Part shown: positions 1-64,000 of the stretch, one piece after another
How positions within the stretch are numbered: the first letter of the stretch is position 1
Layout of the letters: each line of letters starts with the position of its first letter
Assembly (NCBI GenBank): GCA_948099385.1
Contig: CANUEZ040000205.1
Location: 1,984,001-2,048,000, forward strand
Length of the DNA: 64,000 nt
Source: Fasciola hepatica
Taxonomy: Eukaryota > Platyhelminthes > Trematoda > Plagiorchiida > Fasciolidae
Direction of reading: 5' to 3'
Program-made: the position numbers and the translations under genes
Notes under the pieces: model-generated
Told to the model about the DNA's origin: nothing
Seen by the model: the letters and a program-made list of their open reading frames with translations, nothing else
Databases searched by the model: none

Positions 1-196
1 CTTCTCTGTATGGGCCTAAGTACAACCAACGCATTCCCAAATGATAAACCTACACAGCTTCCTTACTATGCATGCAATTGATTAGTAGTAGGAGATTAGA
101 TTAGATTAGATTAGATTAGATTAGAATAGATTTGTATAATATGATTGATCATGCAGCTTGAACGCTCAACTGAGCATTGAAATCCATGGAAGCACT

Positions 197-244
197 CACT
201 GTACAGCTGTTTCATCCTTGTTCGGACTCGACTCATCAGCAGTG
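197..244 (-). ncRNA. Candidate hammerhead self-cleaving ribozyme (first copy in window)
   Basis: Minus strand, 5' to 3': helix I strand CACUG (244-240), core CUGAUGA (239-233), helix II region (232-214), GAAA (213-210), helix III CAGCUG (209-204), then UA (203-202), then helix I strand CAGUG (201-197). Cleavage would fall between the nucleotides opposite 202 and 201. Core positions C3 to A9, G12 A13 A14, A15.1-U16.1, C15.2-G16.2 and G2.1-C1.1 match the hammerhead family; H17 is A. Helix III is two base pairs with loop AGCU, the short-helix-III type I form known from animal satellites. Oddities: 11.1 is U rather than C, and helix II is either three outer pairs with a large loop or a GUCC/GGAU hairpin preceded by five extra nucleotides. 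The same segment lies at anchor +20 to +67 in the other copies. Confidence 0.72.
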
Positions 245-3200
245 CACATCGACCGAGCAACCACGGGCACTCCAACAACCGCTGAACCATTGTGAATTGA
301 ACAACTTAACAACACAAGGCTATCCGGGATCGCTATCAACGCTTTGTTCAACATCTACACTACATCATATATAGCACCTTTCCCAAACTGGCTTCAAATT
401 TCAATGGTAACAACCAGCTTCACGCACACCGATCCACTCCTATGATGGATGACTTCTCTGTAGGGGCCTTAGTACAACCAACGCATTCCCAAATGATAAA
501 CCTACACAGCTTCCTTACTATGCATGCAATTGATTAGTAGTAGGAGATTAGATTAGATTAGATTAGATTAGATTAGATTTGTATAATATGATTGATCACG
601 CAGCTTGAACGCTCAACTGAACATTGAAATCCATGGAAGCACTCACTGTACAGCTGTTTCATCCTTGTTCGGACTCGACTCATCAGCAGTGCACATCGAC
701 CGAGCAACCACGGGGACTCCAACAACCGCTGAACCATTGTGAATCGAACAACTTAACAACGCAAAGCTATCCGGGATGGCTATCAACGCTTTGTTCAACA
801 TCTACACTACATCATATAGCACCCTTCCCAAACTGGCTTCAAATTTCAATGGTAACAACCAGCTTCGCGCACACCGATCGACTCCTATGATGGATAACTT
901 CTCTGTAGGGGCCTTAGTACAACCAACGCATTCCCAAATGATAAACCTACACAGCTTCCTTACTATGCATGCAATTGATTAGTAGTAGGAGATTAGATTA
1001 GATTAGATTAGATTAGAATAGATTTATATAATATGATTGATCATGCAGCTTGAACGCTCAACTGAGCATTGAAATGCATGGAAGCACTCACTGTACAGCT
1101 GTTTCATCCTTGTTCGGACTCGACTCATCAGCAGTGCACATCGACCGAGCAACCACGGGCACTCAAACAACCGCTGAACCATTGTGAATCGAACAACTCA
1201 ACAACGCAAGGCTATACGTGATCGATATCAACGCTTTGTTCAACATCTACACTACATCATATAGCACCCTTCCCAAACTGGCTTCAAATTTCAATGGTAA
1301 CAACCAGCTTCGCGCACACCGATCGACTCCTATGATGGATGACTTCTCTGTAGGGGCCTAAGTACAACCAACGCATTCCCAAATGAAAACCCTACACAGC
1401 TTCCTTACTATGCATGCAATTGATTAATAGTGGGAGATTAGATTAGATTAGATTAGAATAGATTTGTATAATATGATTGATCATGCAGCTTGAACGCTCA
1501 ACTGAGCATTGAAATCCATGGAGGCACTCATTATACAGCTGTTTCATCCTTGTTCGGACTCGACTCATCAGCAGTGCACATCGACCGAGCAACCACGGGG
1601 ACTCCAACAACCGCTGAACCATTGTGAATCGAACAACTCAAAAACACAAGGCTAGCCGGGATCGCTATCAACGCTTTATTCAACATCTACACTACATCAT
1701 ATATAGCACCCTTCCCAAACTGGCTTCAAATTTGAATGGTAACAACCAGCTTCGCGCACACCGATCGACTCCTACGATGGATGACTTATCTGTAGGGGCC
1801 TAAGTACAACCAACGCATTCCCAAATGATAAACCTACACAGCTTCCTTACGATGCATGCAATTGATTAGTAGTGGGAGATTAGATTAGATTAGATTAGAT
1901 TAGAATAGATTTGTATAATATGATTGATCATGCAGCTTGAACGCTCAACTGAGCATTGAAATCCATGGAAGCACTCACTGTACAGCTGTTTCATCCTTGT
2001 TCGGACTCGACTCATCAGCAGTGCACATCGACCGAGCAACCACGGGGACTCCAACAACCGCTGAACCATTGTGAATCGAACAACTTAACAACACAAGGCT
2101 ATCCGGGATGGCTATCAACGCTTTGTTCAACATCTACACTACATGATATATAGCACCCTTCCCAAACTGGCTTCAAATTTCAATGGTAACAACCAGCTTC
2201 GCGCACAGCGATCGACTCCTATGATGGATGACTTCTCTGTAGGGGCCTAAGTACAACCAACGCATTCCCAAATGAAAACCCTACACAGCTTCCTTACTAT
2301 GCATGCAATTGATTAGTAGTAGGAGATTAGATTAGATTAGATTAGATTAGAATAGATTTGTATAATATGATTGATCATGCAGCTTGAACGCTCAACTGAG
2401 CATTGAAATCCATGGAAGCACTCACTGTACAGCTGTTTCATCCTTGTTCGGACTCGACTCATCAGCAGTGCACATCGACCGAGCAACCACGGGCACTCCA
2501 ACAACCGCTGAACCATTGTGAATCGAACAACTCAACAACACAAGGCTATCCGGGATCGCTATCAACGCTTTGTTCAACATCTACACTATATCATATAGCA
2601 CCCTTCCCAAACTGGCTTCAAATTTCAATGGTAACAACCAGCTTCGCGCACACCGATCGACTCCTATGATGGATGACTTATCTGTAGGGGCCTTAGTACA
2701 ACCAGCGCTTTCCCAAATGAAAAATCTTCACAGCTTCCTTACGATGCATGCAATTGATTAGTAGTAGGAGATTAGATTAGATTAGATTAGATTAGATTAG
2801 ATTAGATTAGATTAGATTTGTATAATATGATTGATCATGCAGCTTGAACGCTCAACTGAGCATTGAAATCCATGGAAGCACTCACTGTACAGCTGTTTCA
2901 TCCTTGTTCGGACTCGACTCATCAGCAGTGCACATCGACCGAGCAACCACGGGCACTCCAACAACCGCTGAACCATTGTGAATCGAACAACTTAACAACA
3001 CAAGGCTATCCGGGATCGCTATCAACGCTTTATTCAACATCTACACTACATCATATATAGCACCTTTCCCAAACTGGCTTCAAATTTGAATGGTAACAAC
3101 CAGCTTCGCGCACACCGATCGACTCCTTTGATGGATGACTTCTCTGTAGGGGCCTAAGTACAACCAACGCATTCCCAAATGATAAACCTACACAGCTTCC

Positions 3201-5110
3201 TTACTATGCATGCAATTGATTAGTAGTAGGAGATTAGATTAGATTAGATTAGATTAGATTAGATTAGATTTGTATAATATGATTGATCATGCAGCTTAAA
3301 CGCTCAACTGAACATTGAAATCCATGGAAGCACTCACTGTACAGCTGTTTCATCCTTGTTCGGACTCGACTCATCAGCAGTGCACATCGACCGAGCAACC
3401 ACGGGCACTCCAACAACCGCTGAACCATTGTGAATCGAACAACTTAACAACACAAGGCTATCCGGGATGGCTATCAACGCTTTGTTCAACGTCTATACTA
3501 CATCATTTATAGAACCCTTCCCAAACTGGCTTCAAATTTGAATGGTAACAACCAGCTTCGCGCACACCGATCGACTCCTATGATGGATGAATTCTCTGTA
3601 GGGGCCTAAGTACAACCAACGCATTCCCAAATGAAAAACCTACACAGCTTCCTTACTATGCATGCAATTGATTAGTAGTAGGAGATTAGATTAGATTAGA
3701 TTAGATTAGATTAGTTTTGTATATTATGATTGATCACGCAGCTTGAACGCTCAACTGAGCATTGAAATCCATGGAAGCACTCACTGTACAGCTGTTTCAT
3801 CCTTGTTCGGACTCGACTCATCAGCAGTGCACATCGACCGAGCAACCACGGTGACTCCAACAACCGCTGAACCATTGTGAATCGAACAACTTAACAACGC
3901 AAAGCTATCCGGAATGGCTATCAACGCTTTGTTCAACATCTACACTACATCATATAGCACCCTTCCCAAACTGGCTTCAAATTTGAATGGTAACAACCAG
4001 CTTCGCGCACAGCGATCGACTCCTATGATGGATGACTTCTCTGTAGGGGCCTAAGTACAACCAACGCATTCCCAAATGAAAAACCTACACAGCTTCCTTA
4101 CTATGCATGCAATTGATTAGTAGTAGGAGATTAGATTAGATTAGATAAGATCAGATTTGTATCATATGATTGATCATGCAGCTTGAACGCTCAACTGAGC
4201 ATTGAAATCCATGGAAGCACTCAGTGTACAGCTGTTTCATCCTTGTTCGGACTCGACTCATCAGCAGTGCACATCGACCGAGCAACCACGGGCACTCAAA
4301 CAACCGGTGAACCATTGTGAATCGAACAACTTAACAACACAAGGCTATCCGGGATCGATATCAACGCTTTGTTCAACATCTACACTACATCATATATAGC
4401 ACCCTTCCCAAACTGGCTTCAAATTTCAATGGTAACAACCAGCTTCGCGCACAGCGATCCACTCCTATGATGGATGACTTCTCTGTAGAGGCCTAAGTAC
4501 AACCAACGCATTCCCAAATGAAAAACCTACACAGCTTCCTTACTATGCATGCAATTGATTAGTAGTAGGAGATTAGATTAGATTAGATTAGATTAGAATA
4601 GATTTGTATAATATGATTGATCATGCAGCTTGAACGCTCAACTGAGCATTGAAATCCATGGAAGCACTCACTGTACAGCTGTTTCATCCTTGTTCGGACT
4701 CGACTCATCAGCAGTGCACATCGACCGAGCAACCACGGGCACTCCAACAACCGCTGAACCATTGTGAATCGAACAACTCAACAACGCAAGGCTATCCGGG
4801 ATCGATATCAACGCTTTGTTCAACATCTACACTACATCATATATAGCAGCCTTCCCAAACTGGCTTCAAATTTCAATGGTAACAACCAGCTTCGCGCACA
4901 CCGATCCACTCCTATGATGGATGACTTCTCTGTAGGGGCCTAAGTACAACCAACGCATTCCCAAATGAAAACCCTACACAGCTTCCTTACTATGCATGCA
5001 ATTGATTAGTAGTAGGAGATTAGATTAGATTAGATTAGAATAGATTTGTATAATATGATTGAGCATGCAGCTTGAACGCTCAACTGAGCATTGAAATCCA
5101 TGGAAGCACT

Positions 5111-6473: not shown

Positions 6474-7779
6474 TCATCAGCAGTGCACATCGACCGAGCA
6501 ACCACGGGGACTCCAACAACCGCTGAACCATTGTGAATTGAACCACTCAACAACACAAGGCTATCCGGGATCGCTATCAACGCTTTGTTCAACATCTACA
6601 CTACATCATATATAGCACCCTTTCCAAACTGGCTTCAAATTTCAATGGTAACAACCAGCTTCGCGCACACCGATCGACTCCTATGATGGATGACTTCTCT
6701 GTAATGGCCTAAGTACAACCAACGCACTCCCAAATGAAAAACCTACACAGCTTCCTTACTATGCATGCAATTGATTAGTAGTAGGAGACTAGATTAGATT
6801 TGATTAGATTTGTATAATATGATTGATCATGCAGCTTGAACGCTCAACTGAGCATTGAAATCCATGGAAGCACTCAGTGTACAGCTGTTTCATCCTTGTT
6901 CGGACTCGACTCATCAGCAGTGCACATCGACCGAGCAACCACGGGCACTCCAACAACCGCTGAACCATTGTGAATCGAACAACTTAAAAACAAAACGCTA
7001 CTCGGGATCGCTATCAACGCTTTGTTCAACATATACACTACATCATATATAGCACACTTCCCAAACTCGCTTCAAATTTGAATGGTAACAACCAGCTTCG
7101 CGCACACCGATCGACTCCTATGATGGATGAATTCTCTGTAGGGGCCTAAGTACAACCAACGCATTCCGAAATGAAAAATCTACACAGCTTCCTTACTATG
7201 CATGCAATTGATTAGTATTAGGAGATTAGATTAGATTATATTAGATTAGATTTGTATAATATGATTGAGCATGCAGCTTGAACGCTCAACTGAGCATTGA
7301 AATCCATGGAAGCACTCACTGTAAAATTGTTTCATCCTTGTTCGGACTCGACTCATCAGCACTGCACATCGACCGAGCAACCACGGGGACTCCAACAACC
7401 GCTGAACCATTGTGAATCGAACAATTTAACAACACAAGGCTATCCGTGATCGCTATCAACGCTTTGTTCAACATCTACACTACATCATATATAGCACCCT
7501 TCCCAAACTGGCTTCAAATTTGAATGGTAACAACCAGCTTCGCGCACACCGATCGACTCCTATGATGGATGACTTCTCTGTAGGGGCCTAAGTACAACCA
7601 ACGCATTCCCAAATGATAAACCTACACAGCTTCCTTACTATGCATGCAATTGATTAGTAGTAGGAGATTAGATTAGATTTGTATAATATGATTGATCATG
7701 CAGCTTGAACGCTCAACTGAGCATTGAAATCCATGGAAGCACTCACTGTACAGCTGTTTCATCCTCTAAGGGACTCGAA
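6474..7779 (+). repeat. First unit of a 1306-bp tandem duplication
   Basis: Three monomers (anchors 6855, 7297, 7724) equal the next three (8161, 8603, 9030) at a constant displacement of 1306 bp. I saw no difference on reading. Identity starts just after 6473 (C, versus A at 7779). The monomer at 7724 is a chimera: its first part matches the one at 9030 (CTAAGGGACTCGAATC) and the rest matches the one at 6418 (GAATTGAACCACTC), as unequal crossing-over predicts. Confidence 0.85.
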
Positions 7780-9085
7780 TCATCAGCAGTGCACATCGAC
7801 CGAGCAACCACGGGGACTCCAACAACCGCTGAACCATTGTGAATTGAACCACTCAACAACACAAGGCTATCCGGGATCGCTATCAACGCTTTGTTCAACA
7901 TCTACACTACATCATATATAGCACCCTTTCCAAACTGGCTTCAAATTTCAATGGTAACAACCAGCTTCGCGCACACCGATCGACTCCTATGATGGATGAC
8001 TTCTCTGTAATGGCCTAAGTACAACCAACGCACTCCCAAATGAAAAACCTACACAGCTTCCTTACTATGCATGCAATTGATTAGTAGTAGGAGACTAGAT
8101 TAGATTTGATTAGATTTGTATAATATGATTGATCATGCAGCTTGAACGCTCAACTGAGCATTGAAATCCATGGAAGCACTCAGTGTACAGCTGTTTCATC
8201 CTTGTTCGGACTCGACTCATCAGCAGTGCACATCGACCGAGCAACCACGGGCACTCCAACAACCGCTGAACCATTGTGAATCGAACAACTTAAAAACAAA
8301 ACGCTACTCGGGATCGCTATCAACGCTTTGTTCAACATATACACTACATCATATATAGCACACTTCCCAAACTCGCTTCAAATTTGAATGGTAACAACCA
8401 GCTTCGCGCACACCGATCGACTCCTATGATGGATGAATTCTCTGTAGGGGCCTAAGTACAACCAACGCATTCCGAAATGAAAAATCTACACAGCTTCCTT
8501 ACTATGCATGCAATTGATTAGTATTAGGAGATTAGATTAGATTATATTAGATTAGATTTGTATAATATGATTGAGCATGCAGCTTGAACGCTCAACTGAG
8601 CATTGAAATCCATGGAAGCACTCACTGTAAAATTGTTTCATCCTTGTTCGGACTCGACTCATCAGCACTGCACATCGACCGAGCAACCACGGGGACTCCA
8701 ACAACCGCTGAACCATTGTGAATCGAACAATTTAACAACACAAGGCTATCCGTGATCGCTATCAACGCTTTGTTCAACATCTACACTACATCATATATAG
8801 CACCCTTCCCAAACTGGCTTCAAATTTGAATGGTAACAACCAGCTTCGCGCACACCGATCGACTCCTATGATGGATGACTTCTCTGTAGGGGCCTAAGTA
8901 CAACCAACGCATTCCCAAATGATAAACCTACACAGCTTCCTTACTATGCATGCAATTGATTAGTAGTAGGAGATTAGATTAGATTTGTATAATATGATTG
9001 ATCATGCAGCTTGAACGCTCAACTGAGCATTGAAATCCATGGAAGCACTCACTGTACAGCTGTTTCATCCTCTAAGGGACTCGAA
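7780..9085 (+). repeat. Second unit of the 1306-bp tandem duplication
   Basis: Homology with the first unit runs on to 9108 and ends at the T of CGACCGTG (9109), where the first unit has A (7803). Diagnostic shared marks are TTAAAAACAAAACGCTACTC, CAACATATACAC, and TGTAAAATTG. Confidence 0.85.
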
Positions 9086-9476
9086 TCATCAGCAGTGCAC
9101 ATCGACCGTGCAACCACGTGGACTACAACAACCGGTGAACCATTGTGAATCGAACAACTCAACAACGCAAGGCTATCCGGGATGGCTATCAACGCTTTGT
9201 TCAACATCTACACTACATCATTTATAGCACCCTTCCCAAACTGGCTTCACATTTGAATGGTAACAACCAGCTTCGCGCACACCGATCGACTCCTATGATG
9301 GATGAATTCTCTGTAGGGGCCTAAGTACAACCAACGCATTCCCAAATGATAAACCTACACAGCTTCCTTACTATGCATGCAATTGATTAGTAGTAGGAGA
9401 TTAGATTAGATTAGATTAGATTAGAATAGATTTGTATAATATGATTGATCATGCAGCTTGAACGCTCAACTGAGCA

Positions 9477-12400
9477 TTGAAATCCATGGAAGCACTCACT
9501 GTACAGCTGTTTCATCCTTGTTCGGACTCGACTCATCAGCAGTGCACATCGACCGAGCAACCACGGGGACTCCAACAACCGCTGAACCATTGTGAATCGA
9601 ACAACTTAACAACACAAGGCTATCCGGCATGGCTATCGACGCTTTGTTCAACATCTACACTACATCATATATAGCACCCTTCCCAAACTGGCTTCAAATT
9701 TCAATAGCAACAACCAGCTTCGCGCACACCGATCGACTCCTATGATGGATGACTTCTCTGTAGGGGCCTAAGTACAACCAACGCATTCCCAAATGATAAA
9801 CCTTCACATCTTCCCTAATGTGCCTGCCAATTATTAGTAGTAGGAGATTAGATTAAATTAGATTAGATTAGATTTATATAATATGATTGATCATGCAGCT
9901 TGAACGCTCAACTGAGCATTGAAATCCATGGAATCACTCACTGTACAGCTGTTTCATCCTTGTTCGGACTCGACTCATCAGCAGTGCACATCGACCGAGC
10001 AACCACGGGGACTCCAACAACCGCTGAACCATTGTGAATTGAACCACTCAACAACACAAGGCTATCCGGGATCGCTATCAACGCTTTGTTCAACATCTAC
10101 ACTACATCATATATAGCACCCTTTCCAAACTGGCTTCAAATTTCAATGGTAACAACCAGCTTCGCGCACACCGATCGACTCCTATGATGGATGACTTCTC
10201 TGTAATGGCCTAAGTACAACCAACGCACTCCCAAATGAAAAACCTACACAGCTTCCTTACTATGCATGCAATTGATTAGTAGTAGGAGACTAGATTAGAT
10301 TTGATTAGATTTGTATAATATGATTGATCATGCAGCTTGAACGCTCAACTGAGCATTGAAATCCATGGAAGCACTCAGTGTACAGCTGTTTCATCCTTGT
10401 TCGGACTCGACTCATCAGCAGTGCACATCGACCGAGCAACCACGGGCACTCCAACAACCGCTGAACCATTGTGAATCGAACAACTTAATAACAAAACGCT
10501 ACTCGGGATCGCTATCAACGCTTTGTTCAACATATACACTACATCATATATAGCACCCTTCCCAAACTGGCTTCAAATTTGAATGGTAACAACCAGCTTC
10601 GCGCACACCGATCCACTCCTATGATGGATGAATTCTCTGTAGGGGCCTAAGTACAACCAACGCATTCCGAAATGAAAAATCTACACAGCTTCCTTACTAT
10701 GCATGCAATTGATTAGTAGTAGGAGATTAGATTAGATTAGATTAGATTAGATTTGTATAATATGATTGATCATGCAGCTTGAACGCTCAACTGAGCATTG
10801 AAATCCATGGAAGCACTCACTGTAAAATTGTTTCATCCTTGTTCGGACTCGACTCATCAGCACTGCACATCGACCGAGCAACCACGGGGACTCCAACAAC
10901 CGCTGAACCATTGTGAATCGAACAACTTAACAGCACAAGGCTATCCGGGATCGCTATCAACGCTTTGTTCAACGTCTACACTACATGATATATAGCACCC
11001 TTCCCAAACTGGCTTCAAATTTGAATGGTAACAACCAGCTTCGCGCACACCGATCGACTCCTATGATGGATGACTTCTCTGTAGGGGCCTAAGTACAACC
11101 AACGCATTCCCAAATGATAAACCTACACAGCTTCCTTACTATGCATGCAATTGATTAGTAGTAGGAGATTAGATTAGATTTGTATAATATGATTGATCAT
11201 GCAGCTTGAACGCTCAACTGAGCATTGAAATCCATGGAAGCACTCACTGTACAGCTGTTTCATCCTCTAAGGGACTCGACTCATCAGCAGTGCACATCGA
11301 CCGTGCAACCACGTGGACTACAACAACCGGTGAACCATTGTGAATCGAACAACTCAACAACGCAAGGCTATCCGGGATGGCTATCAACGCTTTGTTCAAC
11401 ATCTACACTACATCATTTATAGCACCCTTCCCAAACTGGCTTCAAATTTGAATGGTAACAACCAGCTTCGCGCACACCGATCGACTCCTATGATGGATGA
11501 CTTCTCTGTAGGGGCCTAAGTACAACCAACGCATTCCCAAATGAAAAACCTACACAGCTTCCTTACTATGCATGCAATTGATTAGTAGTAGGAGATTAGA
11601 TTAGATTAGATAAGATCAGATTTGTATCATATGATTGATCATGCAGCTTGAACGCTCAACTGAGCATTGAAATCCATGGAAGCACTCACTGTACAGCTGT
11701 TTCATCCTTGTTCGGACTCGACTCATCAGCACTGCACATCGACCGAGCAACCACGGGGACTCCAACAACCGCTGAACCATTGTGAATCGAACAACTTAAC
11801 AACACAAGGCTATCCGGGATCGCTATCAACGCTTTTTTCAACGTCTACACTACATGATATATAGCACCCTTTCCAAACTGGCTTCAAATTTCAATGGTAA
11901 CAACCAGCTTCGCGCACACCGATCGACTCCTATGATGGATGAATTCTCTGTAGGGGCCTAAGTACAACCAACGCATTTCCAAATGAAAAATCTACACAGC
12001 TTCCTTACTATGCATGCAATTGATTAGTAGTAGGAGATTAGATTAGATTAGATTAGATTAGATTAGATTTGTATAATATAATTGAGCATGCAGCTTGAAC
12101 GCTGAACTGAGCATTGAAATCCATGGAAGCACTCACTGTACAGCTGTTTCATCCTTGTTCGGACTCGACTCATCAGCAGTGCACATCGACTGAGCAACCA
12201 CGGGGACTCCAACAACCGCTGAACCATTGTGAATCGAACAACTTAACAGCACAAGGCTATCCGTGATCGCTATCAACGCTTTGTTCAACGTCTACACTAC
12301 ATGATATATAGCAGCCCTCCAAAACTGGCTTCAAATTTGAATGGTAACAACCAGCTTCGCGCACACCGATCGACTCCTATGATGGATGACTTCTCTGTAG

Positions 12401-27145: not shown

Positions 27146-28794
27146 TTGTATAATATGATTGATCATGCAGCTTGAACGCTCAACTGAGCATTGAAATCCA
27201 TGGAAGCACTCACTGTACAGCTGTTTCATCCTTGTTCGGACTCGACTCATCAGCAGAGCACATCGACCGAGCAACCACGGGGACTCCAACAACCGCTGAA
27301 CCATTGTGAATCGAACAACTTAACAACACAAGGCTATCCGGGATCGCTATCAACGCTTTGTTCAACATCTACACTACATCATATAGCACCCTTCCCAAAC
27401 TGGCTTCAAATTTGAATGGTAACAACCAGCTTCGCGCACACCGATCCACTCCTATGATGGATGACTTCTCTGTAGGGGCCTAAGTACAACCAACGCGTTC
27501 TCAAATGATAAACATACACATCTTCATTAAAATGCATGCACGTTAATAGCAGTAGGAAATAAGATTAGATTAGATTAGAATAGATTTGTATAATATGATT
27601 GATCATGCAGCTCGAACGCTCAACTGAGCATTGAAATCCATGGAAGCACTCACTGTACAGCTGTTTCATCCTTGTTCGGACTCGACTCATCACCAGTGCA
27701 CATCGACCGAGCAACCACGGGGACTCCAACAACGGCTGAACCATTGTCAATCGAACAACTTAACAACACAAGGCTATCCGGGATCGCTATCAACGCTTTG
27801 TTCAACATCTACACTACATCATATAGCACCCTTCCCAAACTGGCTTCAAATTTGAATGGTAACAACCAGCTTCGCGCACACCGATCGACTCCTATGATGG
27901 ATGACTTCTCTGTAGGGGCCTAAGTACAACCAACGCATTCCCAAATGATAAACCTACACAGCTTCCTTACTATGCGTGCAATTGATTAGTAGTAGGAGAT
28001 TAGATTAGATTAGATTAGATTAGATTAGATTAGATTTGTATAATATGATTGATCATGCAGCTTGAACGCTCAACTGAGCATTGAAATCCATGGAAGCACT
28101 CAGTGTACAGCTGTTTCATCCTTTTTCGGACTTGACTCATCAGCAGTGCACATCGACCGAGCAACCACGGGCACTCCAACAACCGCTGAACCATTGTGAA
28201 TCGAACAACTTAACAACACGAGGCTATCCGGGATGCCTATCAACGCTTTGTTCAACATCTACACTACATCATACAGCACCCTTCCCAAACTGGCTTCAAA
28301 TTTGAATGGTAACAACCAGCTTCGCGCACACCGATCGACTCCTATGGTGGATGAATTCTCTGTAGGGGCCTAAGTACAACCAACGCATTCCCAAATGAAC
28401 AACTTACACAACTTCCTTAATTTGCACGCAATTGATTAGTAGTAGGAGATTAGATTAGATTAGATTAGATTAGATTAGATTTGTATAATATGATTGAGCA
28501 TGCAGCTTGAACGCTCAACTGAGCATTGAAATCCATGGAAGCACTCACTGTACAGCTGTTTCATCCTTGTTCGGACTCGACTCATCAGCAGTGCACATCG
28601 ACCGAGCAACCACGGGCACTCCAAGAACGGCTGAACCATTGTGAATCGAACAACTTAACAACACAAGTCTATCCGGGATGCCTATCGACGCTTTGTTCAA
28701 CATCTACACTACATCATATACCACCGTTCCCAAACTGGCTTCAAATTTGAATGGTAACAACCAGCTTCGCGCACACCGATCGACTCCTATGATG

Positions 28795-36269: not shown

Positions 36270-36297
36270 CATCATATAGCACCCTTCCCAAACTGGC

Positions 36298-43197: not shown

Positions 43198-43565
43198 TTG
43201 AAATCCATGGAAGCACTCACTGTACAGCTGTTTCATCCTTGTTCGGACTCGACTCATCAGCAGTGCACATCGACCGAGCAACCACGGGGACTCCAACAAC
43301 CGCTGAACCATTGTGAATCGAACAACTCAACAAAACAAGGCTATCCGGGATCGCTATCAACGCTTTGTTCAACATCTACACTACATGATATAGCACCCTT
43401 CCCAAACTGGCTTCAAATTTGAATGGTAACAACCAGCTTCGCGCACGCCGAACCACTCCTATGATGGATGACTTCTCTGTAGGGGCCTAAGTACAACCAA
43501 CGCATTTCCAAATGATAAACCTACACAGCTTCCTTACTATGCATGCAATTGATTAATAGTAGGAG

Positions 43566-43665
43566 ATTAGATTATATTAGATTGGATTAGAATAGATTAG
43601 ATTAGATTAGATTAGATTAGATTAGATTAGATTAGATTAGATTAGATTAGATTAGATTAGATTAG
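43566..43665 (+). repeat. Expanded (ATTAG)n microsatellite
   Basis: A degenerate start containing GATTGGATTAGAATAG is followed by 14 uninterrupted ATTAG units (43596-43665). Ordinary monomers have about two to seven. Confidence 0.92.
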
Positions 43666-45410
43666 ATTTGTATAATATGATTGATCATGCAGCTTGAACG
43701 CTCAACTGAGCATTGAAATCCATGGAAGCACTCACTGTACAGCTGTTTCATCCTTGTTCGGACTCGACTCATCAGCAATGCACATCGACCGAGCAACCAC
43801 GGGCACTCCAACAACCGCTGAACCATTGTGAATCGAACAACTTAACAACACAAGGCTATCCGGGATCGCTATCAACGCTTTGTTCAACATCTACACTACA
43901 TCATATAGCACCCTTCCCAAACTGGCTTCAAATTTCAATGGTAACAACCAGCTTCGCGCACACCGATCGACTCCTATGATGGATGACTTCTCTGTAGGGG
44001 CCGAAGTACAACCAACGCATTCCCAAATGATATTCCTACACAGCTTCAATAAAATGCATGCACTTTAATAGCAGTAGGAAATTGGATTCAATGGGAATGG
44101 AACAGATTTGTATAATATGATTGATCATGCAGCTTGAACGCTCAACTGAGCATTGAAATCCATGGAAGCACTCACTTTACAGCTGTTTCATCCTTGTTCG
44201 GACTCGACTCATCAGCAGTGCACATCGACCGAGCAACCACGGGCACTCCAACAACCGCTGAACCATTGTGAATCGAACAACTTAACAACACAAGGCTATC
44301 CGGGATGGCTATCAACGCTTTGTTCAACATCTATACTACATCATATAGCACCCTTCCCAAACTGGCTTCAAATTTGAATGGTAACAACCAGCTTCGCGCA
44401 CACCGATCGACTCCTATGATGGATGACTTCTCTGTAGGGGCCTAAGTACAACCAACGCATTTCCAAATGATAAACCTACACAGCTTCCTTACTATGCATG
44501 CAATTGATTAGTAGTAGGAGATTAGATTAGATTAGATTAGATTAGATTAGATTTGTATAATATCATTGATCATGCAGCTTGAACGCTCAACTGAGCATTG
44601 AAATCCATGGAAGCACTCACTGTACAGCTGTTTCATCCTTGTTCGGACTCGACTCATCAGCAGTGCACATCGACCGAGCAACCACGGGCACTCCAACAAC
44701 CGCTGAACCATTGTGAATCGAACAACTTAACAACACAAGGCTATCCGGGATCGCTATCAACGCTTTGTTCAACATCTACACTACATCATATAGCACCGTT
44801 CCCAAACTGGCTTCAAATTTGAATGGTAACAACCAGCTTCGCGCACACCGATCGACTCCTATGATGGATGAATTCTCTGTAGGGGCCTAAGTACAACCAA
44901 CGCATTCCCAAATGATAAACCTACAAAGCTTCCTTACTTTGCATGCAATTGATTAGTAGTAGGAGATTAGATTAAATTAGATTAGATTAGAATAGATTTG
45001 TATAATATGATTGATCATGCAGCTTGAACGCTCAACTGAGCATTGAAATCCATGGAAGCACTCAGTGTACAGCTGTTTCATCCTTGTTCGGACTCGACTC
45101 ATCAGCAGTGCACATCGACCGAGCAACCACGGGGACTCCAACAACCGCTGAACCATTGTGAATCGAACAACTTAACAACACAAGGCTATCCGGGATCGCT
45201 ATCAACGCTTTGTTCAACATCTACACTACATCATATAGCACCGTTCCCAAACTGGCTTCAAATTTGAATGGTAACAACCAGCTTCGCGCACACCGATCGA
45301 CTCCTATGATGGATGAATTCTCTGTAGGGGCCTAAGTACAACCAACGCATTTCCAAATGATAAACCTACACAGCTTCCTTACTATGCATGCAATTGATTA
45401 ATAGTAGGAG

Positions 45411-45515
45411 ATTAGATTATATTAGATTGGATTAGAAGAGATTAGATTAGATTAGATTAGATTAGATTAGATTAGATTAGATTAGATTAGATTAGATTAG
45501 ATTAGATTAGATTAG
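45411..45515 (+). repeat. Expanded (ATTAG)n microsatellite
   Basis: The same ATTATATTAGATTGGATTAG lead-in is followed by 15 uninterrupted ATTAG units (45441-45515). Confidence 0.92.
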
Positions 45516-46825
45516 ATTTGTATAATATGATTGATCATGCAGCTTGAACGCTCAACTGAGCATTGAAATCCATGGAAGCACTCACTGTACAGCTGTTTCA
45601 TCCTTGTTCGGACTCGACTCATCAGCAGTGCACATCGACCGAGCAACCACGGGCACTCCAACAACCGCTGAACCATTGTGAATCGAACAACTCAACAACA
45701 CAAGGCTATCCGGGATGGCTATCAACGCTTTGTTCAACATCTACACTACATCATATATAGCACCCTTCCAAAACTGGCTTCAAATTTGAATGGTAACAAC
45801 CAGCTTCGCGCACACCGATCGACTGCTATGATGGATGACTTCTCTGTAGGGGCCGAAGTACAACCAACGCATTCCCAAATGATAAACCTACACAGCTTCA
45901 ATAAAGAGCATGCACTTTAATAGCAGTAGGAAATTGGATTCAATGGGAATGGAACAGATTTGTATAATATGATTGATCATGCAGCTTGAACGCTCAACTG
46001 AGCATTGAAATCCATGGAAGCACTCACTGTACAGCTGTTTCATCCTTGTTCGGACTAGACTCATCAGCAGTGCACATCGACCGAGCAACCACGGGCACTC
46101 CAACAACCGCTGAACCATTGTGAATCGAACAACTCAACAACACAAGGCTATCCGGGATCGCTATCAACGCTTTGTTCAACATCTACACTACATCATATAG
46201 CACCCTTCCCAAACTGGCTTCAAATTTGAATGGTAACAACCAGCTTCGCGCACACCGATCGACTCCTATGATGGATGAATTCTCTGTAGGGGCCTAAGTA
46301 CAACCAACGCATTCCCAAATGATAAACCTACACAGCTTCCTTACTATGCATGCAATTGATTAGTAGTAGGAGATTAGATTAGATTAGATTAGAATAGATT
46401 ACATTAGAACAGATTTGTATAATATGATTGATCATGCAGCTTGAACGCTCAACTGAACATTGAAATGCATGGAAGCACTCAGTGTACAGCTGTTTCATCC
46501 TTGTTCGGACTTTACTCATCAGCAGTGCACATCGACCGAGCAACCACGGGGACTCCAACAACCGCTGAACCATTGTGAATCGAACAACTCAACAACACAC
46601 AACTATCCGGGATGGCTATCAACGCTTTGTTCAACATCTACACTACATCATATAGCACCCTTCCCAAACTGGCTTCAAATTTGAATGGTAACAACCAGCT
46701 TCGCGCACACCGATCCACTCCTCTGATGGATGACTTCTCTGTAGGGGCCTGAGTAAACTAACGCATTTCCAAATGATAAACCCACACAGATTACTTACTG
46801 TGCATGCAAAAGTTTAGCAGTACGA

Positions 46826-46915
46826 GATTAGATTAGATTAGATTGGATCAGAATAGATTAGATTAGATTAGATTAGATTAGATTAGATTAGATTAGATTA
46901 GATTAGATTAGATTA
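46826..46915 (+). repeat. Expanded (GATTA)n microsatellite
   Basis: A lead-in with GATTGGATCAGAATA is followed by 12 uninterrupted GATTA units (46856-46915). The linker just before it is unusual (GATTACTTACTGTGCATGCA). Confidence 0.92.
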
Positions 46916-47863
46916 GATTTGTATAATATATTTGATCATGCAGCTTGAACGCTCAACTGAGCATTGAAATCCATGGAAGCACTCACTGTACAGCTGTTTC
47001 ATCCTTGTTCGGACTCGACTCATCAGCAGTGCACATCGACCGAGCAACCACGGGCACTCCAACAACCGCTGAACCATTGTGAATCGAACAACTTAACAAC
47101 ACAAGGCTATCCGGGATGGCTATCAACGCTTTGTTCAACATCTACACTACATCATATAGCACCCTTCCCAAACTGGCTTCAAATTTGAATGGTAACAACC
47201 AGCTTCGCGCACACCGATCGACTCCTATGATGGATGACTTCTCTGTAGGGGCCTAAGTACAACCAACGCATTCACAAATGAACAACCTACACAGCTTCCT
47301 TACAACGCGTGCACGTTATTAGCTGTAGGAAATTAGATTAGATTAGATTAGAATAGATTTGTATAATATGATTGATCATGCAGCTTGAACGCTCAACTGA
47401 GCATTGAAATCCATGGAAGCACTCACTGTACAGCTGTTTCATCCTTGTTCGGACTCGACTCATCGGCAGTGCACATCGACCGAGCAACCACGGGGACTCC
47501 AACAACCGCTGAACCATTGTGAATCGAACAACTTAACAACACAAGGCTATCCGGGATGGCTATCAACGCTTTGTTCAACATCTACACTACATCATATAGC
47601 ACCGTTCCCAAACTGGCTTCAAATTTCAATGGTTACAACCAGCTTCGCGCACAACGATCGACTCCTATGATGGATGACTTCTCTGTAGGGGCCTAAGTAC
47701 AACCAAGGCATTCCCAAATGATAAACCTACACAGCTTCCTTACTAAGCATGCACGTTATAAGTACTAGGAAATAAGATCAGATTAGATTAGAATAGATTT
47801 GTATAATATGATTGATCATGCAGCTTGAACGCTCAACTGAGCATTGAAATCCATGGAAGCACT

Positions 47864-50118: not shown

Positions 50119-50420
50119 CACATCGACCGAGCAACCACGGGCACTCCAACAACCGCTGAACCATTGTGAATCGAACAACTTAACAACACAAGGCTATCCG
50201 GGATCGCTATCAACGCTTTGTTCAACATCTACACTACATCATATATAGCACCCTTCCCAAACTGGCTTCAAATTTGAATGGTAACAACCAGCTTCGCGCA
50301 CACCGATCGACTCCTATGATGGATGAATTCTCTGTAGGGGCCTAAGTACAACCAACGCATTCACAAATGATAAACCTACACAGATTACTTATTATGCATG
50401 CAATTGATTACTAGTAGGAG

Positions 50421-50530
50421 ATTAGATTAGATTAGATTGGATTAGAATAGATTAGATTAGATTAGATTAGATTAGATTAGATTAGATTAGATTAGATTAG
50501 ATTAGATTAGATTAGATTAGATTAGATTAG
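50421..50530 (+). repeat. Longest pure (ATTAG)n microsatellite in the window
   Basis: The GATTGGATTAGAATAG lead-in is followed by 16 uninterrupted ATTAG units (50451-50530), giving the largest spacing in the array, 527 bp. Confidence 0.92.
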
Positions 50531-51386
50531 ATTTGTATAATATGATTGATCATGCAGCTTGAACGCTCAACTGAGCATTGAAATCCATCGAAGCACTCAC
50601 TGTACAGCTGTTTCATCCTTGTTCGGACTCGACTCATCACCAGTGCACATCGACCGAGCAACCACGGGCACTCCAACAACCGCTGAACCATTGTGAATCG
50701 AATAACTTAACAACACAAGGCTATCCGGGATGCCTATCAACGCTTTGTTCAACATCTACACTACATCATATATAGCACCCTTCCCAAACTGGATTCAAAT
50801 TTGAATGGTAACAACCAGCTTCGCGCACACCGATCGACTCCTATGATGGATGAATTCTCTGTAGGGGCCTAAGTACAACCAACGCATTCCCAAATGATAA
50901 ACCTACACAGCTTGTTTAAAAAGCATGCAATTGATTAGTAGTTGGAGATTAGATTAGATTAGATTTGAATAGATTTGTATAATATGATTGATCATGCAGC
51001 TTGAACGCTCAACTGAGCATTGAAATCCATGGAAGCACTCAGTGTACAGCTGTTTCATCCTTGTTCGGACTCGACTCATCAGCATTGCACATCGACCGAG
51101 CAACCACGGGCACTCCAACAACCGCTGAACCATTGTGAATCGAACAACTTAACAACACAAGGCTATCCGGGATCGCTATCAACGCTTTGTTCAACATCTA
51201 CACTATATCATATAGCACCCTTCCCAAACTGGCTTCAAATTTCAATGGTAACAACCAGCTTCGCGCACACCGATCGACTCCTATGATGGATGAATTCTCT
51301 GTAGGGGCCTAAGAACAACCAACGCATTCACAAATGATAAACCTACACAGCTTCCTTACTATGCATGCAATTGATTAGTAGTAGGA

Positions 51387-51475
51387 GATTAGATTAGATT
51401 AGATTGGATTAGAATAGATTAGAATAGATTAGATTAGATTAGATTAGATTAGAATAGATTAGATTAGATTAGATT
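51387..51475 (+). repeat. Expanded, interrupted ATTAG microsatellite
   Basis: The tract is broken by several AATAG units and ends in GATTTGATTTG, a form shared with the tract ending near 52435. Interruptions suggest it is older than the pure tracts. Confidence 0.88.
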
Positions 51476-52331
51476 TGATTTGTATAATATGATTGATCAT
51501 GCAGCTTGAACGCTCAACTGAGCATTGAAATCCATGGAAGCACTCAGTGTACAGCTGTTTCATCCTTGTTCGGACTCGACTCATCAGCAGTGCACATCGA
51601 CCGAGCAACCACGGGGACTCCAACAACCGCTGAACCATTGTGAATCGAACAACGTAACAACACAAGTCTATCCGCGATGGCTATCAACGCTTTGTTCAAC
51701 ATCTACACTACATCATATAGCACCCTTCCCAAACTGGCTTCAAATTTGAATGGTAACAACCAGCTTCGCGCACACCGATCGACTCCTATGATGGATGAAT
51801 TCTCTGTAGGGGCCTAAGAACAACCAACGCATTCCCAAATGAACAACCTACACAGCTTGTTTAAGAAGCATGAAATTGATTAGTAGTTGGAGATTAGATA
51901 AGATTAGTTTTGAATAGATTTGTATAATATGATTGATCATGCAGCTTGAACGCTCAACTGAGCATTGAAATCCATGGAAGCACTCACTGTACAGCTGTTT
52001 AATCCTTGTTCGGACACGACTCATCAGCAGTGCACATCGACCGAGCAACCACGGGGACTCCAACAACCGCTGAACCATTGTGAATCGAACAACTTAACAA
52101 CACAAGGCTATCCGGGATCGCTATCAACGCTTTGTTCAACATCTACACTACATGATATAGCACCGTTCCCAAACTGGCTTCAAATTTGAATGGTAACAAC
52201 CAGCTTCGCGCACACCGATCGACTCCTATGATGGATGAATTCTCTGTAGGGGCCTAAGTACAACCAACGCATTCACAAATGATAAACCTACACAGATTAC
52301 TTACTATGCATGCAATTGATTACTAGTAGGA

Positions 52332-52435
52332 GATTAGATTATATTAGATTGGATTAGAATAGATTAGATTAGATTAGATTAGATTAGATTAGATTAGATT
52401 AGATTAGATTATATTAGATTAGATTAGATTAGATT
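52332..52435 (+). repeat. Expanded, interrupted ATTAG microsatellite
   Basis: The same GATTGGATTAGAATAG lead-in is present, with one ATATTAG interruption and a GATTTGATTTG end. It shares the CAGATTACTTAC linker and ATTACTAGTAGG start with the tract at 50421. Confidence 0.88.
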
Positions 52436-53284
52436 TGATTTGTATAATATGATTGATCATGCATCTTGAACGCTCAACTGAGCATTGTAATCCATGGAAG
52501 CACTCACTGTACAGCTGTTTCATCCTTGTTCGGACTCGACTCGTCAGCAGTGCACATCGACCGAGCAACCACGGGGACTCCAACAACCGCTGAACCATTG
52601 TGAATCGAACAACTTAACAACACAAAACTATCCGGGATGGCTATCAACGCTTTGTTCAACATCTACACTACATCATATAGCACCCGTCGCAAACTGGCTT
52701 CAAATTTGAATGGTAACAACCAGCTTCGCGCACACCGATCGACTCCTATGATGGATGACTTCTCTATAGGGGCCTAAGTACAACCAACGCATTCCCAAAT
52801 GAAAAACCTACACAGATTCCTTACTATGCATGCAATTGATTAGTAGTAGGAGATTAGATTAGATTAGATTAGAATAGATTTGTACAATATGATTGATCAT
52901 GCAGCTTGAACAATCAACTGAGCATTGAAATCCATGGAAGCACTCACTGTACAGCTGTTTCATCCTTGTTCGGACTCGACTCATCACCAGTGCACATCGA
53001 CCGAGCAACCACGGGCATTCCAACAACCGCTGAACCATTGTGAATCGAACAACTTAACAACACAAGGCTATCCGGGATCGCTATCAACGCTTTGTTCAAC
53101 GTCTACACTACATCATATATAGCACCCTTCCCAAACTGGCTTCAAATTTGAATGGTAACAACCAGCTTCGCGCACACCGATCGACTCCTATGATGGATGA
53201 CTTCTCTGTAAGGGACTAAGTACAACCAACGCATTCCCAAATGATAAACCTACACAGCTTCCTTACTATGCATGCAATTGTTTA

Positions 53285-53325: not shown

Positions 53326-53361
53326 ATGTTTGATCATGCAGCTTGAACGCTCAACTGAGCA

Positions 53362-58641: not shown

Positions 58642-61600
58642 TTGAAATCCATGGAAGCACTCACTGTACAGCTGTTTCATCCTTGTTCGGACTCGACTCA
58701 TCAGCATTGCACATCGACCGAGCAACCACGGGCACTCCAACAACCGCTGAACCATTGTGAATCGAACAACTTAACAACACAAGGCTATCCGGGATCGCTA
58801 TCAACGCTTTGTTCAACATCTACACTACATCATATGTAGCACCCTTCCCAAACTGGCTTCGAAGGTGAATGGTAACAACCAGCTTCGCGCACACCGATCG
58901 ACTCCTATGATGGATGAATTCTCTGTAGTGGCCTATGTACAACCAACGCATTCCCAAATGATAAACCTACACAGCTTCCTTACTATGCATGCAATTGATT
59001 AGTAGTAGGAGATTAGATTAGATTAGATTAGATTAGATTAGATTATAATAGATTTGTATATTGTGATTGATCATGCAGCTTGAACGCTCAACTGAGCATT
59101 GAAATGCATCTAAGCACTCACTGTACAGCTGTTTCATCCTTGTTCGGACTCGTCTCATCAGCAGTGCACATCGACCGAGCAACCACGGGGACTCCAACAA
59201 CCGCTGAACCATTGTGAATCGAACAACTTAACAACACAAGGCTATCCGGGATCGCTATCAACGCTTTGTTCAACATCTACACTACATCATATAGCACCCT
59301 TCCCAAACTGGCTTCGAAGGTGAATGGTAACAACCAGCTTCGCGCACACCGATCGACTCCTATGATGGATGACTTCTCTGTAGGGGCCGAAGTACAACCA
59401 ACGCATTCCCAAATGAAAAACCTACTCAGCTTCCTTACTATGCATGCAATTGATTAGAAGTAGGAGATTAGATTAGATTAGATTAGAATAGATTTGTATA
59501 ATATGATTGTTCATGCTGCTTGAACGCTCAACTGAGCATTGAAATCCATGGAAGCACTCACTGTACAGCTGTTTCATCCTTGTTCGGACTCGACTCATCA
59601 GCAGTGCACATCGACCGAGCAACCACGGGCACTCCAACAACCGCTGAACCATTGTGAATCGAACAACTTAACAACACAAGGCTATCCGGGATGCCTATCA
59701 ACGATTTGTTCAACATCTACACTACATCATATAGCACCCTTCCCAAACTGGCTTCAAATTTGAATGGTAACAACCAGCTTCGCGCACACCGATCGACTCC
59801 TATGATGGATGACTTATCTGTAGGGGCCTAAGTACAACCAACGCATTCCCAAATGATAAACCTACACAGCTTCCTTACTATGCATGCAATTGATTAGTAG
59901 TAGGAGATTAGATTAGATTAGATTAGATTAGATTAGATTAGAATAGATTTGTATAATATGATTGATCATGCAGCTTGAACGCTCAACTGAGCATTGAAAT
60001 CCATGGAAGCACTCAGTGTACAGCTGTTTCATCCTTGTTCGGACTCGACTCATCAGCAGTGCACATCGACCGAGCAACCAAGGGTACTCCACCAACCGCT
60101 GAACCATTGTGAATCAAACAACTTAACAACACAAGGCTATCCGCGGTGGCTATCAACACTTTGTTCAACATCTACACTACATCATATAGCACCGGTTCGA
60201 AACTGGCTCCAAATTTGAATGGTAACAACCAGCTTCGCGCACACCGATCGACTCCTATGATGGATGACTTCTCTGTAGTGGCCTATGTACAACCAACGCA
60301 TTCCCAAATGATAAACCTACACAGCTTACTTACTATGCATGCAATTGATTAGTAGTAGGAGATTAGATTAGATTAGATTAGATTAGAATATATTTGTATA
60401 ATATGATTGATCATGCAGCTTGAACGCTCAACTGAGCATTGAAATCCATGAAAGCACTCACTGTACAGCTGTTTCATCCTTGTTCGGACTCGACTCATCA
60501 GCAGTGCACATCGACCGAGCAACCACGGGCACTCCAACAACCGCTGAACCATTGTGAATCGAACAACTTAACAACACAAGGCTATCCGCGATGGCTATCA
60601 ACGCTTTGTTCAACATCTACACTACATCATATAGCACCCTTCCCAAACTGGCTTCAAATTTCAATGGTAACAACCAGCTTCGCGCACACCGATCGACTCC
60701 TATGATGGATGAATTCTCTGTAGGGGCCTAAGTACAACCAACGCATTCCCAAATGATAAACCTACACAGCTTCCTTACTATGCATGCAATTGATTAGTAG
60801 TAGGTGAATAGATTAGATTAGAATAAATTTGTATAATATGATAGATCATGCAGTTTGAACGCTCAACTGAGCATTGAAATCCATGGAAGCACTCACTGTA
60901 CAGCTGTTTCATCCTTGTTCGGACTCGACTCATCAGCAGTGCACATCGACCGAGCAACCACGGGCACTCCAACAACCGCTGAACCATTGTGAATCGAACA
61001 ACTCAACAACACAAGGCCATCCGAGATCGCTATCAACGCTTTGTTCAACATCTACACTACATGATTTAGCACCCTTCCCAAACTGGCTTCAAATTTGAAT
61101 GGTAACAACCAGCTTCGCGCACACCGATCGACTCCTATGATGGATGACTTCTCTGTAGGGGCCTAAGTACAACCAACGCATTTCCAAATGATAAACCTAC
61201 ACAGCTTCCTTACTATGCATGCAATTGATTAGTAGTAGGAGATTAGATTAGATTAGATTAGATTAGATTAGAATAGATTTGTATAATATGGTTGATCATG
61301 CAGCTTTAACGCTCAACTGAGCATTGAAATCCATGGAAGCACTCACTGTACAGCTGTTTCATCCTCTAAGGGACTCGACTCATCAGCATTGCACATCGAC
61401 CGAGCCCACACGGGCACTCCAACAACCGCTGAACCATTGTGAATCGAACAACTTAACAACACAAGGCTGTCCGGGATGGTTATCAACGCTTTGTTCAACA
61501 TCTACACTACATCATATAGCACCCTTCCCAAACTGGCTTCAAATTTGAATGGTAACAACCAGCTTCGCGCACACCGATCAACTCCTATGATGGATGACTT

Positions 61601-64000
61601 CTCTGTAGAGGCCTAAGTACAACCAACGCATTCCCAAATGATAAACCTACACAGCTTCCTTACTATGCATGCAATTGATTAGTAGTAGGAGATTAGATTA
61701 GATTAGATTAGATTAGATTAGAATAGATTTGTATAATATGATTGATCATGCAGCTTTAACGCTCAACTGAGCATTGAAATCCATGGACGCACTCACTGTA
61801 CAGCTGTTTCATCCTTGTTCGGACTCGACTCATCACCAGTGCACATCGACCGAGCAACCACGGGGACTCCAACAACCGCTGAACCATTGTGAATCGAAAC
61901 ACTTAACAACACAAGGCTGTCCGGGATGGCTATCAACGCTTTGTTTAACATCTACACTACATCATATAGCACCCTTCCCAAACTGGCTTCAAATTTGAAT
62001 GGTAACAACCAGCTTCGCGCACACCGATCCACTCCTATGATGGATGAATTCTCTGTAGGGGCCTATGTACAACCAACGCATTCCCAAATGATAAACCTAC
62101 ACAGCTTCCTTACTATGCATGCAATTGATTAGTAGTAGGAGATTAGACTAGATTAGATTAGATTAGAATAGATTTGTATAATATGATTGATCATGCAGCT
62201 TGAACGCTCAACTGAGCATTGAAATCCATGGAAGCACTCACTGTACAGCTGTTTCATCCTTGTTCGGACTCGACTCATCAGCAGTGCACATCGACCGAGC
62301 AACCACGGGCACTCCAACAACCGCTGAACCATTGTGAATCGAACAACTTAACAACACAAGGCTATCCGCGATGGCTATCAACGCTTTGTTCAACATCTAC
62401 ACTACATGATATAGCACCCTTCCCAAACTGGCTTCAAATTTGAATGGTAACAACCAGCTTCGCGCACACCGATCCACTCCTATGATGGATGACTTCTCTG
62501 TAGGGGCCTAAATTCAACCAACGCATTCCCAAAAGTTAAACACACACAGCTTCCTTACTATGCATGCAATTGTTTAGTAGTACGAGATTAGATTAGATTA
62601 GATTAGATTAGATTAGAATAGATTTGTATAATATGATTGATCATGCAGCTTGAACGCTCCACTGAGCATTGAAATGCATGGAAGCACTCAGTGTACAGCT
62701 GTTTCATCCTTGTTCGGACTCGACTCATCACCAGTGCACATCGACCGAGCAACCACGGGCACTCCAACAACCGCTGAACCATTGTGAATCGAACAACTTA
62801 ACAACACAAGGCTATCCGCGATGGCTATCAACGCTTTGTTCAACATCTACACTACATGATTTAGCACACTTCCCAAACTGGCTTCAAATTTGAATGGTAA
62901 CAACCAGCTTCGCGCACACCGATCAACTCCTATGATGGATGACTTCTCTGTAGGGGCCTAAGTACAACCAACGCATTCCCAAATGATAAACCTACACAGC
63001 TTCCTTACTATGCATGCAATTGATTAGTAGTAGGAGATTAGATTAGATTAGATTAGATTAGATTAGAATAGATTTGTATAATATGATTGATCATGCAGCT
63101 TTAACGCTCAACTGAGCATTGAAATCCATGGACGCACTCACTGTACAGCTGTTTCATCCTTGTTCGGACTCGACTCATCAGCAGTGCACATCGACCGAGC
63201 AACCACGGGCACTCCAACAACCGCTGAACCATTGTGAATCGAACAACTTAACAACACAAGGCTGTCCGGGATGGCTATCAACGCTTTGTTCAACATCTAC
63301 ACTACATCATATAGCACCCTTCCCAAACTGGCTTCAAATTTGAATGGTAACAACCAGCTTCGCGCACACCGATCGACTCCTATGATGGATGACTTCTCTG
63401 TAGGGGCCTAAATTCAACCAACGCATTCCCAAATGATAAACCTACACAGCTTCCTTACTATGCATGCAATTGATTATTAGTAGGTGATTAGATTAGATTA
63501 GATTAGATTAGATTAGAATAGATTTGTATAATATGATTGATCATGCAGCTTGAACGCTCCACTGAGCATTGAAATCCATGGAAGCACTCACTGTACAGCT
63601 GTTTCATCCTTGTTCGGACTCGACTCATCACCAGTGCACATCGACCGAGCAACCACGGGCACTCCAACAACCGCTGAACCATTGTGAATCGAACAACTTA
63701 ACAACACAAGGCTATCCGGGATGGCTATCAACGCTTTGTTCAACATCTACACTACATCATATAGCACCCTTCCCAAACTGGCTTCAAATTTCAATGGTAA
63801 CAACCAGCTTCGCGCACACCGATCGACTCCGATGATGGATGACTTCTCTGTAGGGGCCTAAATTCAACCAACGCATTCCCAAATGAACAACATACACAGC
63901 TTCCTTACTATGCATGCAATTGATTAGTAGTAGGAGATTAGATTAGATTAGATTAGATTAGATTAGAATAGATTTGTATAATATGATTGATCATGCAGCT
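58642..64000 (+). repeat. Right-end near-consensus monomers
   Basis: Anchors 58642, 59099, 59539, 59994, 60439, 60874, 61324, 61774, 62219, 62669, 63119, 63569. A trimer tendency is visible: 61774 and 63119 share CAGCTTTAACGC, GGACGCACTC and GGCTGTCCGGG at 1345 bp. The last monomer is cut off by the window end in the leader of the next copy. No gene is seen. Confidence 0.78.
63589..63636 (-). pseudogene. Hammerhead copy with C3 to G change
   Basis: The + strand TCATCACCAG gives GUGAUGA instead of CUGAUGA. C3 normally pairs with G8 in the active fold, so cleavage should be lost or strongly reduced. Twelve copies share this change (anchors 27631, 29845, 33854, 35639, 36974, 47844, 50578, 52925, 53807, 61774, 62669, 63569). 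Confidence 0.7.

Follow-up and report, generated by a model that had tools for sequence, protein, structure and literature searches.

A hammerhead-bearing satellite of Fasciola hepatica and its probable origin from an abundant mobile element with a tRNA-like head

The DNA analyzed here, a 64-kb stretch of the Fasciola hepatica assembly GCA_948099385.1 (contig CANUEZ040000205.1, here C205, positions 1984001-2048000; referred to as the window), lies in a 1.5-Gb genome and consists of a single tandem satellite array (positions 1..64000, no strand assigned) whose monomers carry a hammerhead ribozyme motif on the minus strand. Tandem Repeats Finder (TRF) gave a consensus period of 445 bp and 143.4 copies. 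For the survey of the motif 142 monomers were delimited by 143 anchors and all were aligned; they lie in one orientation, and random pairs of units are on average 94.9% identical. The window is part of longer arrays. With a window unit as the query, 147 matches were obtained in the genome (40 candidates scored), those listed being all on C205 (1.89-2.79 Mb) and contig C191 (8.72-9.83 Mb). A 16-nt tag from stem II of the satellite motif, CTGATGAGTCGAGTCC, occurs 18,588 times genome-wide (reversed control, 0), and the roughly 100 places listed for it fall within arrays on C187 and C191 or at a handful of sites on C112, C120, C178, C179, C182 and C189.

Based on the minus-strand pattern CACTG-CTGATGA-N{10,30}-GAAACAGCTGTA-CAGTG, 73 exact copies of the motif were identified in the window and none in 100 dinucleotide shuffles, in agreement with an earlier note on this DNA which had considered a chance co-occurrence of these elements very improbable. 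A 43-nt version of the motif, allowing up to three mismatches, was found 134 times. In the first unit, taken as representative, the motif occupies positions 197..244 (minus strand), with stem II and its loop at 214..232 and a predicted cleavage site, after A17 and before C1.1, at 201..202, as placed by the hammerhead scheme and the RF00163 alignment. The earlier note had assigned a hammerhead to each monomer; the motif itself is confirmed, but "each" is too strong, since the core (CUGANGA, GAAA, U16.1 and H17, in order) is intact in 126 of the 142 units and all five helix-I pairs are present in 74. The remaining core-intact units have four pairs (51 units, three of which lack the 15.2-16.2 pair) or three (one unit), and the 16 broken cores carry C3 to G (12), U4 to C (1) or G12 to U (3) changes. 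Motif position 46, a G of helix I, is altered in 34 of the 142 units (to C in 31, to A in 3), and none of the 35 haplotypes has a partner change restoring that pair. The segment ACAGCUGU, which forms helix III and its loop, is an 8-nt palindrome, and dimeric action is therefore possible. In the covariance check proposed in the earlier note, RF00163 aligns over its full model length (1-45; positions 245-196 of the first unit) but reaches 19.1 bits where the gathering score is 34, with an E value of 0.65 for 4.5 kb. At gathering level Rfam gave zero matches in the window, tRNA and hammerhead included. The identification as a hammerhead thus draws on homology to cleaner dispersed copies, and not on the covariance model alone.

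These copies belong to an abundant element of about 400 bp, here termed the parent, in which a tRNA-like head is accompanied by a type I hammerhead, a fixed 3' tail and a further 190 bp or so, and which is found both dispersed and in tandem. An array on C2 contains one partial and five full 401-bp units that are 100% identical, and the GC content of the parent is 47.6%. The satellite is 84% identical to the C2 unit over 412 columns, and its 445-base consensus aligns to dispersed copies over up to 417 columns (locus L026; also L014, L016 and L019). The exact 45-nt main-family hammerhead occurs in 11,154 genome copies and the form with G at 10.1, which the Rfam model favours (36.0 bits in L012), in 18. 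On these counts the 36-bit G10.1 copies were dropped as the family norm, and U at the two positions 10.1 and 11.1 was taken in their place. Of the two weak points named in the earlier note, U at 11.1 is real and, being common to the dispersed relatives, is a family trait; the odd helix II is also real, and is due to five extra bases relative to those relatives.

The Rfam tRNA model RF00005 was above its cut-off in five of the 12 loci searched (L064, L003, L067, L080 and L091), which gives the parent a tRNA-like head with A and B boxes, and in L064 each of the five full units scores 33.1 bits with the tRNA model (cut-off 29) and 28.8 bits with the hammerhead model. A 31-nt B-box pattern, at most two mismatches being allowed, was found at 17,005 places (reversed control, 0), many of those listed lying at 400-bp spacing. 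In the satellite the B box GGTTCGANTCC has at least two mismatches in all 142 units, so that the intact B box of a tRNA-derived short interspersed nuclear element (SINE) is absent there. In the first unit, alignment with the parent monomer places what is left of the tRNA-like head at 250..328 (minus strand; B-box remnant at about 265-280), and an (AATCT)n tract at 93..132 (minus strand), identified by TRF and by alignment with the parent unit, takes the position of the parent's 3' tail. A run of TTTT at 331 of the 401-bp parent unit, just 3' of the hammerhead, is a possible stop for RNA polymerase III; TTTT shortly 3' of GAAAC occurs in only three of the 142 window units.

A genome search with RF00163 (74 candidates scored out of 288,504) listed 38 matches, 37 of them above the cut-off and a second family included among them. 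In loci L001-L035, 32 hammerheads whose helix I has four or more contiguous pairs were read, 28 of the satellite family and four of the second family, in which H17 is C (GCACCA ... TC-TGGTGC). The second-family hammerheads lie at L002:1501-1545, L022:1151-1195 and L031:1131-1175 (minus strand), all three above the Rfam cut-off, and in L032; the sequence upstream of them looks tRNA-like by eye, but the Rfam tRNA model produced no match in it up to an E value of 0.1.

A chance resemblance might be read into the E value of 0.65 and the score below gathering, were it not for the absence of matches in the 100 shuffles and for homology, along the full length, to elements whose hammerheads are cleaner and in several cases above the Rfam cut-off. 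On account of that homology chance was rejected as the origin of the motif, and we attach next to no credence to it. Judged by sequence comparison, the satellite motif is a genuine hammerhead, type I by descent and with a very short helix III; the earlier note's placing of it in the same broad kind as the tandem-satellite hammerheads of schistosomes and newts accordingly holds, by descent.

Compared with the main family, the satellite has five additional bases in stem II, a duplicated AGTG after helix I and an altered B box, and its (AATCT)n tract is longer. The five stem-II bases are lacking in the hammerheads of the dispersed relatives, and the extra AGTG (193..196 of the first unit, minus strand, immediately 3' of helix I) has no counterpart in the dispersed family nor in L097-L101, the dispersed copies that carry the stem-II insertion. 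Among the latter, L097 (both arms) is 95% identical to the parent unit and has a parent-like head; L101 is 92% identical; L100 and L099 (87% each) are more diverged, the head of L099 being decayed; and L098, which has the insertion and lacks the AGTG duplication, is 97% identical to the satellite over 399 columns. A CTTAGA loop type is shared by a few window units and L101. These copies suggest an order for the satellite-specific changes, and since they are dispersed the stem-II insertion did not end mobility at once. A subfamily with the insertion would have lost its B box and gained the 4-nt duplication beside helix I, and would then have been amplified at the DNA level into megabase satellite arrays. 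Expansion at the DNA level is proposed because of the scale of the arrays and the single orientation of the 142 units.

Two further features of the array were recorded. In six window monomers the AGATT tract is expanded to 19-23 copies from the usual 6-10 (TRF; 43564-43668, 45409-45518, 46825-46919, 50419-50533, 51386-51480 and 52331-52440, no strand assigned). At 6875-11292 and 27211-30807 of the window, motif haplotypes repeat at about 1306, 2195 and 2214 bp, resembling higher-order repeats of three or five monomers.

Mean conservation was 0.976 for the 48 motif columns, compared with 0.964 overall, and 160 of 398 stretches of the same size scored higher; the 12 core columns average 0.988, a value reached by 5.6% of random column sets. 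Clear evidence of selection on the motif is not evident. Selection had also been sought in an earlier, anchor-biased set of 98 units, and neither set (98 or 142) gave clear support; homogenisation of a satellite blurs tests of this type.

The cost of folding was calculated as the free energy of the hammerhead conformer relative to the whole ensemble, with the chosen pairs enforced and tertiary contacts omitted. For the 126 core-intact satellite units (the 16 core-broken units were left out) the predicted cost has a median of 11.3 kcal/mol with the core-proximal stem II or 7.8 kcal/mol with the distal stem II, and minima of 5.9 and 3.5 kcal/mol, respectively. The 28 dispersed satellite-family copies gave a median of 1.3 kcal/mol (range 0.1-10.0). 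As these were chosen through Rfam and are hence biased, the main-family parent hammerhead was folded separately, at a cost of 1.4 kcal/mol for the T10.1 and G10.1 forms alike. The four second-family copies cost 5.9-6.7 kcal/mol. Insertion-type copies without the AGTG duplication cost 0.4-2.7 kcal/mol (L101 and one arm of L097) and 0.1-4.8 kcal/mol (L098), and those with substitutions in helix I (the other L097 arm and L099) 4.3-7.8 kcal/mol. Because insertion copies with neither the AGTG duplication nor helix-I substitutions fold cheaply, the duplication, which would allow GCACU-AGUGC pairing, appears to do much of the damage to the modelled fold. The window copies of the hammerhead are probably impaired.

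Might the satellite hammerhead still be active, perhaps as a double (dimeric) hammerhead that processes satellite transcripts? In favour, 126 of 142 units retain an intact core, the 5-nt insertion as read from the sequence can bulge so that three core-proximal stem-II pairs are kept, and amphibian hammerheads with a very weak helix III and a palindromic tetraloop are described as needing dimers (PMC7229834, in excerpt); such a ribozyme would nevertheless face a predicted fold cost of about 8-11 kcal/mol, would be missing an intact core or a full helix I in 68 of the 142 units, and would reside in a motif without clear conservation that reaches only 19.1 bits with RF00163. We consider continued activity unlikely. 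The earlier note's proposal that multimeric satellite transcripts are cut into monomers is likewise not supported, given the two small insertions or duplications, the predicted conformer that is strongly outcompeted, the uncompensated position 46 and the absence of clear conservation. Most likely, the satellite hammerhead is a relic with little or no activity and not a maintained processing signal.

The insertions of the parent were then classified by the orientation of their arms. The sample is non-random, its 57 records being 26 from Rfam-chosen loci, 30 that were the first places of one pattern search, and L096. Eleven records cut by the end of a locus were dropped, leaving 46, and matches shorter than 150 bp were left uncounted. 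The 46 records comprise 28 minus-plus (head-to-head), 12 plus, 4 minus, 2 plus-minus-plus and no plus-minus insertions. Three places were recorded twice (L063/L064, L069/L070 and L078/L079), so that there are 43 distinct insertions: 27 head-to-head, 11 plus, 4 minus, 1 plus-minus-plus and no plus-minus. The plus-minus-plus insertion includes a tail-to-tail boundary, while simple tail-to-tail insertions number 0 of 43, and all 28 two-arm records are oriented 5'-to-5'. Among neighbours up to 700 bp apart in two pattern lists of about 100 places each, minus-then-plus was found at 11 distinct loci and plus-then-minus at none. Direct repeats of at least 8 bp flank 17 of the 46 records (2.7% of mismatched-flank pairs) and repeats of at least 9 bp flank 13 (0.7%); 12 of the 17 are head-to-head. 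At 27 junctions between arms, the overlap is at least 2 bases in 20 and at least 3 bases in 14, compared with 66 and 50 of 292 simulated blunt junctions. The array on C8 has 8 minus and 11 plus heads (19 units) within an 11-bp flanking repeat, ACTAAATCTTG. Six C8 units taken from both arms have four differences from the C2 unit in common, and two variants occur within the array; the shared differences could reflect a single template for both arms, and later homogenisation could yield the same pattern.

Two loci deserve separate mention. In L014, head-to-head composites at 1082-1733 and 8164-8820 lie 7 kb apart, are 99% identical and have the same junction, whereas their flanking repeats differ (12 and 13 bp). 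It appears from this that a whole composite can be duplicated at once, and the shared junction with different target duplications weakens the case for a fresh origin of every head-to-head unit. In L096 (C10:3085700-3087900) the unique DNA on one side of a head-to-head composite recurs in inverted orientation on the other side, as expected of an assembly fold-back or of a real inverted duplication. Junction positions otherwise differ among composites, the exceptions being the common junction of the L014 pair and that of L096, within 2-3 bases of it. It is from these two loci that the head-to-head composites in general might be taken for assembly fold-back artefacts or later inverted duplications and not products of integration. 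Direct target duplications of 8-14 bp in 12 of the 28 head-to-head records and of 11 bp at the C8 array, the uniform 5'-to-5' orientation, and junctions that differ elsewhere and overlap more often than simulated blunt ones make this improbable. The orientation bias, target duplications and junction microhomology together suggest reverse transcription primed from both target strands.

In the mechanism proposed, the hammerhead would cleave multimeric parent transcripts, and the products, perhaps closed into circles, would be reverse-transcribed at nicked target sites. Both target strands would prime reverse transcription at the 3' tail of the element, and the two cDNAs would be joined 5'-to-5'. 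A circular template made by the hammerhead is the less certain step, suggested by tandem units that are identical and joined without a seam; the template could also be a linear, multimeric RNA transcribed from an older array. In its full form the proposal is a two-sided, rolling-circle, target-primed reverse transcription on circular RNA, each growing cDNA circling the template up to many times before the arms are joined by microhomology, and yielding a head-to-head array with one target duplication. We put this form forward tentatively, as somewhat more apt to fail than to hold. If true, head-to-head tandem arrays such as that of 19 units on C8 would be a natural seed of satellites like that of the window.

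The homology shows the satellite monomer to be a diverged copy of the parent; taken jointly, the results make it fairly probable that the parent is a non-autonomous retroelement, a hybrid of tRNA-derived SINE and retrozyme resembling the schistosome Sm-alpha, and that the satellite hammerhead is a relic with little or no activity. Several points weigh against this. ARAGORN found no tRNA genes in 10 loci, and the Rfam tRNA model passed its cut-off in just five of 12. The parent's main-family hammerhead, at 28.8 bits, is itself under the RF00163 cut-off, rarer variants reaching 36.0-39.1 bits. The fold energies leave out tertiary contacts, and the stem-II insertion may leave function intact, insertion-type copies having dispersed. 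The core columns are slightly above average in conservation, and weak selection on the satellite motif is possible.

Among known systems, Sm-alpha and Sj-alpha are hammerhead-bearing, SINE-like schistosome elements, and the hammerhead candidates of S. mansoni exceeded 38,000 in number, while the source of tRNA-Gln-like copies was found in elements resembling Sm-alpha (PMC2770079 and PMC8490949, both in excerpt). The parent is like them in its trematode host, its tRNA-related, SINE-like nature, its type I hammerhead and its very high copy number; it differs in that its ~400-bp units form tandem and head-to-head arrays and have given rise to a derived megabase satellite. Metazoan retrozymes are described, in the excerpts of PMC7229834, as type I hammerhead-bearing units of 150-450 bp arranged in tandem, with a GC content under 50% and target duplications of more than 4 bp, whose RNA occurs in linear and circular form. 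The 401-bp tandem units on C2 with their type I hammerhead, the 400-bp spacing in the listed places, the GC content given above and the target duplications of at least 8 bp at 17 of 46 records all agree with the non-LTR (lacking long terminal repeats) retrozymes, and the features listed in those excerpts include neither a tRNA-like head nor head-to-head insertions. On its sequence, then, the parent fits the description of a retrozyme and adds a tRNA-like head. The satellite-type hammerheads of newt and axolotl share the very short helix III, the palindromic tetraloop and the location in repeated DNA (same excerpts), whereas the fluke satellite version is disrupted and its host unrelated. Penelope-like elements likewise have tandem or partial-tandem copies and hammerhead motifs (PMC11167929, in excerpt), but the parent, at ~400 bp, is too short to encode a reverse transcriptase. 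The description of PcH-sat of Patella caerulea does not mention a hammerhead (0 occurrences), in contrast to the motif of the fluke satellite. Among open-licence papers none was found that joins "Fasciola" and "hammerhead ribozyme" in title or abstract, and prior publication is possible; "head-to-head" had a single occurrence among the 15 of 132 open-licence papers listed (in PMC10162972), and the head-to-head form may still be published.

The mitochondrial COX1 of the assembly (genetic code 9) is 94% identical to that of Fasciola gigantica and 84% to that of Fasciolopsis buski. COX1 copies recur at roughly 14-15-kb spacing on C429, C468, C471 and other contigs, as if mitochondrial genomes had been concatenated in the assembly, and a COX1 fragment with stops lies at C46:3930449-3930778.

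The functional inference for the satellite is weaker than the earlier note held, and the parent with its two-sided insertions is the more interesting object. In one genome, copies form a series that starts with a mobile element bearing a hammerhead and ends with a megabase satellite in which the motif persists while its activity has probably been lost; the presence of a hammerhead in a satellite therefore need not mean that processing is being maintained. With U.U at 10.1/11.1 in thousands of identical copies, the main mobile family lends itself to asking whether mobility needs ribozyme activity. The head-to-head tandem insertions with target duplications offer a DNA footprint for testing the proposed retrotransposition of retrozymes through circular RNA.

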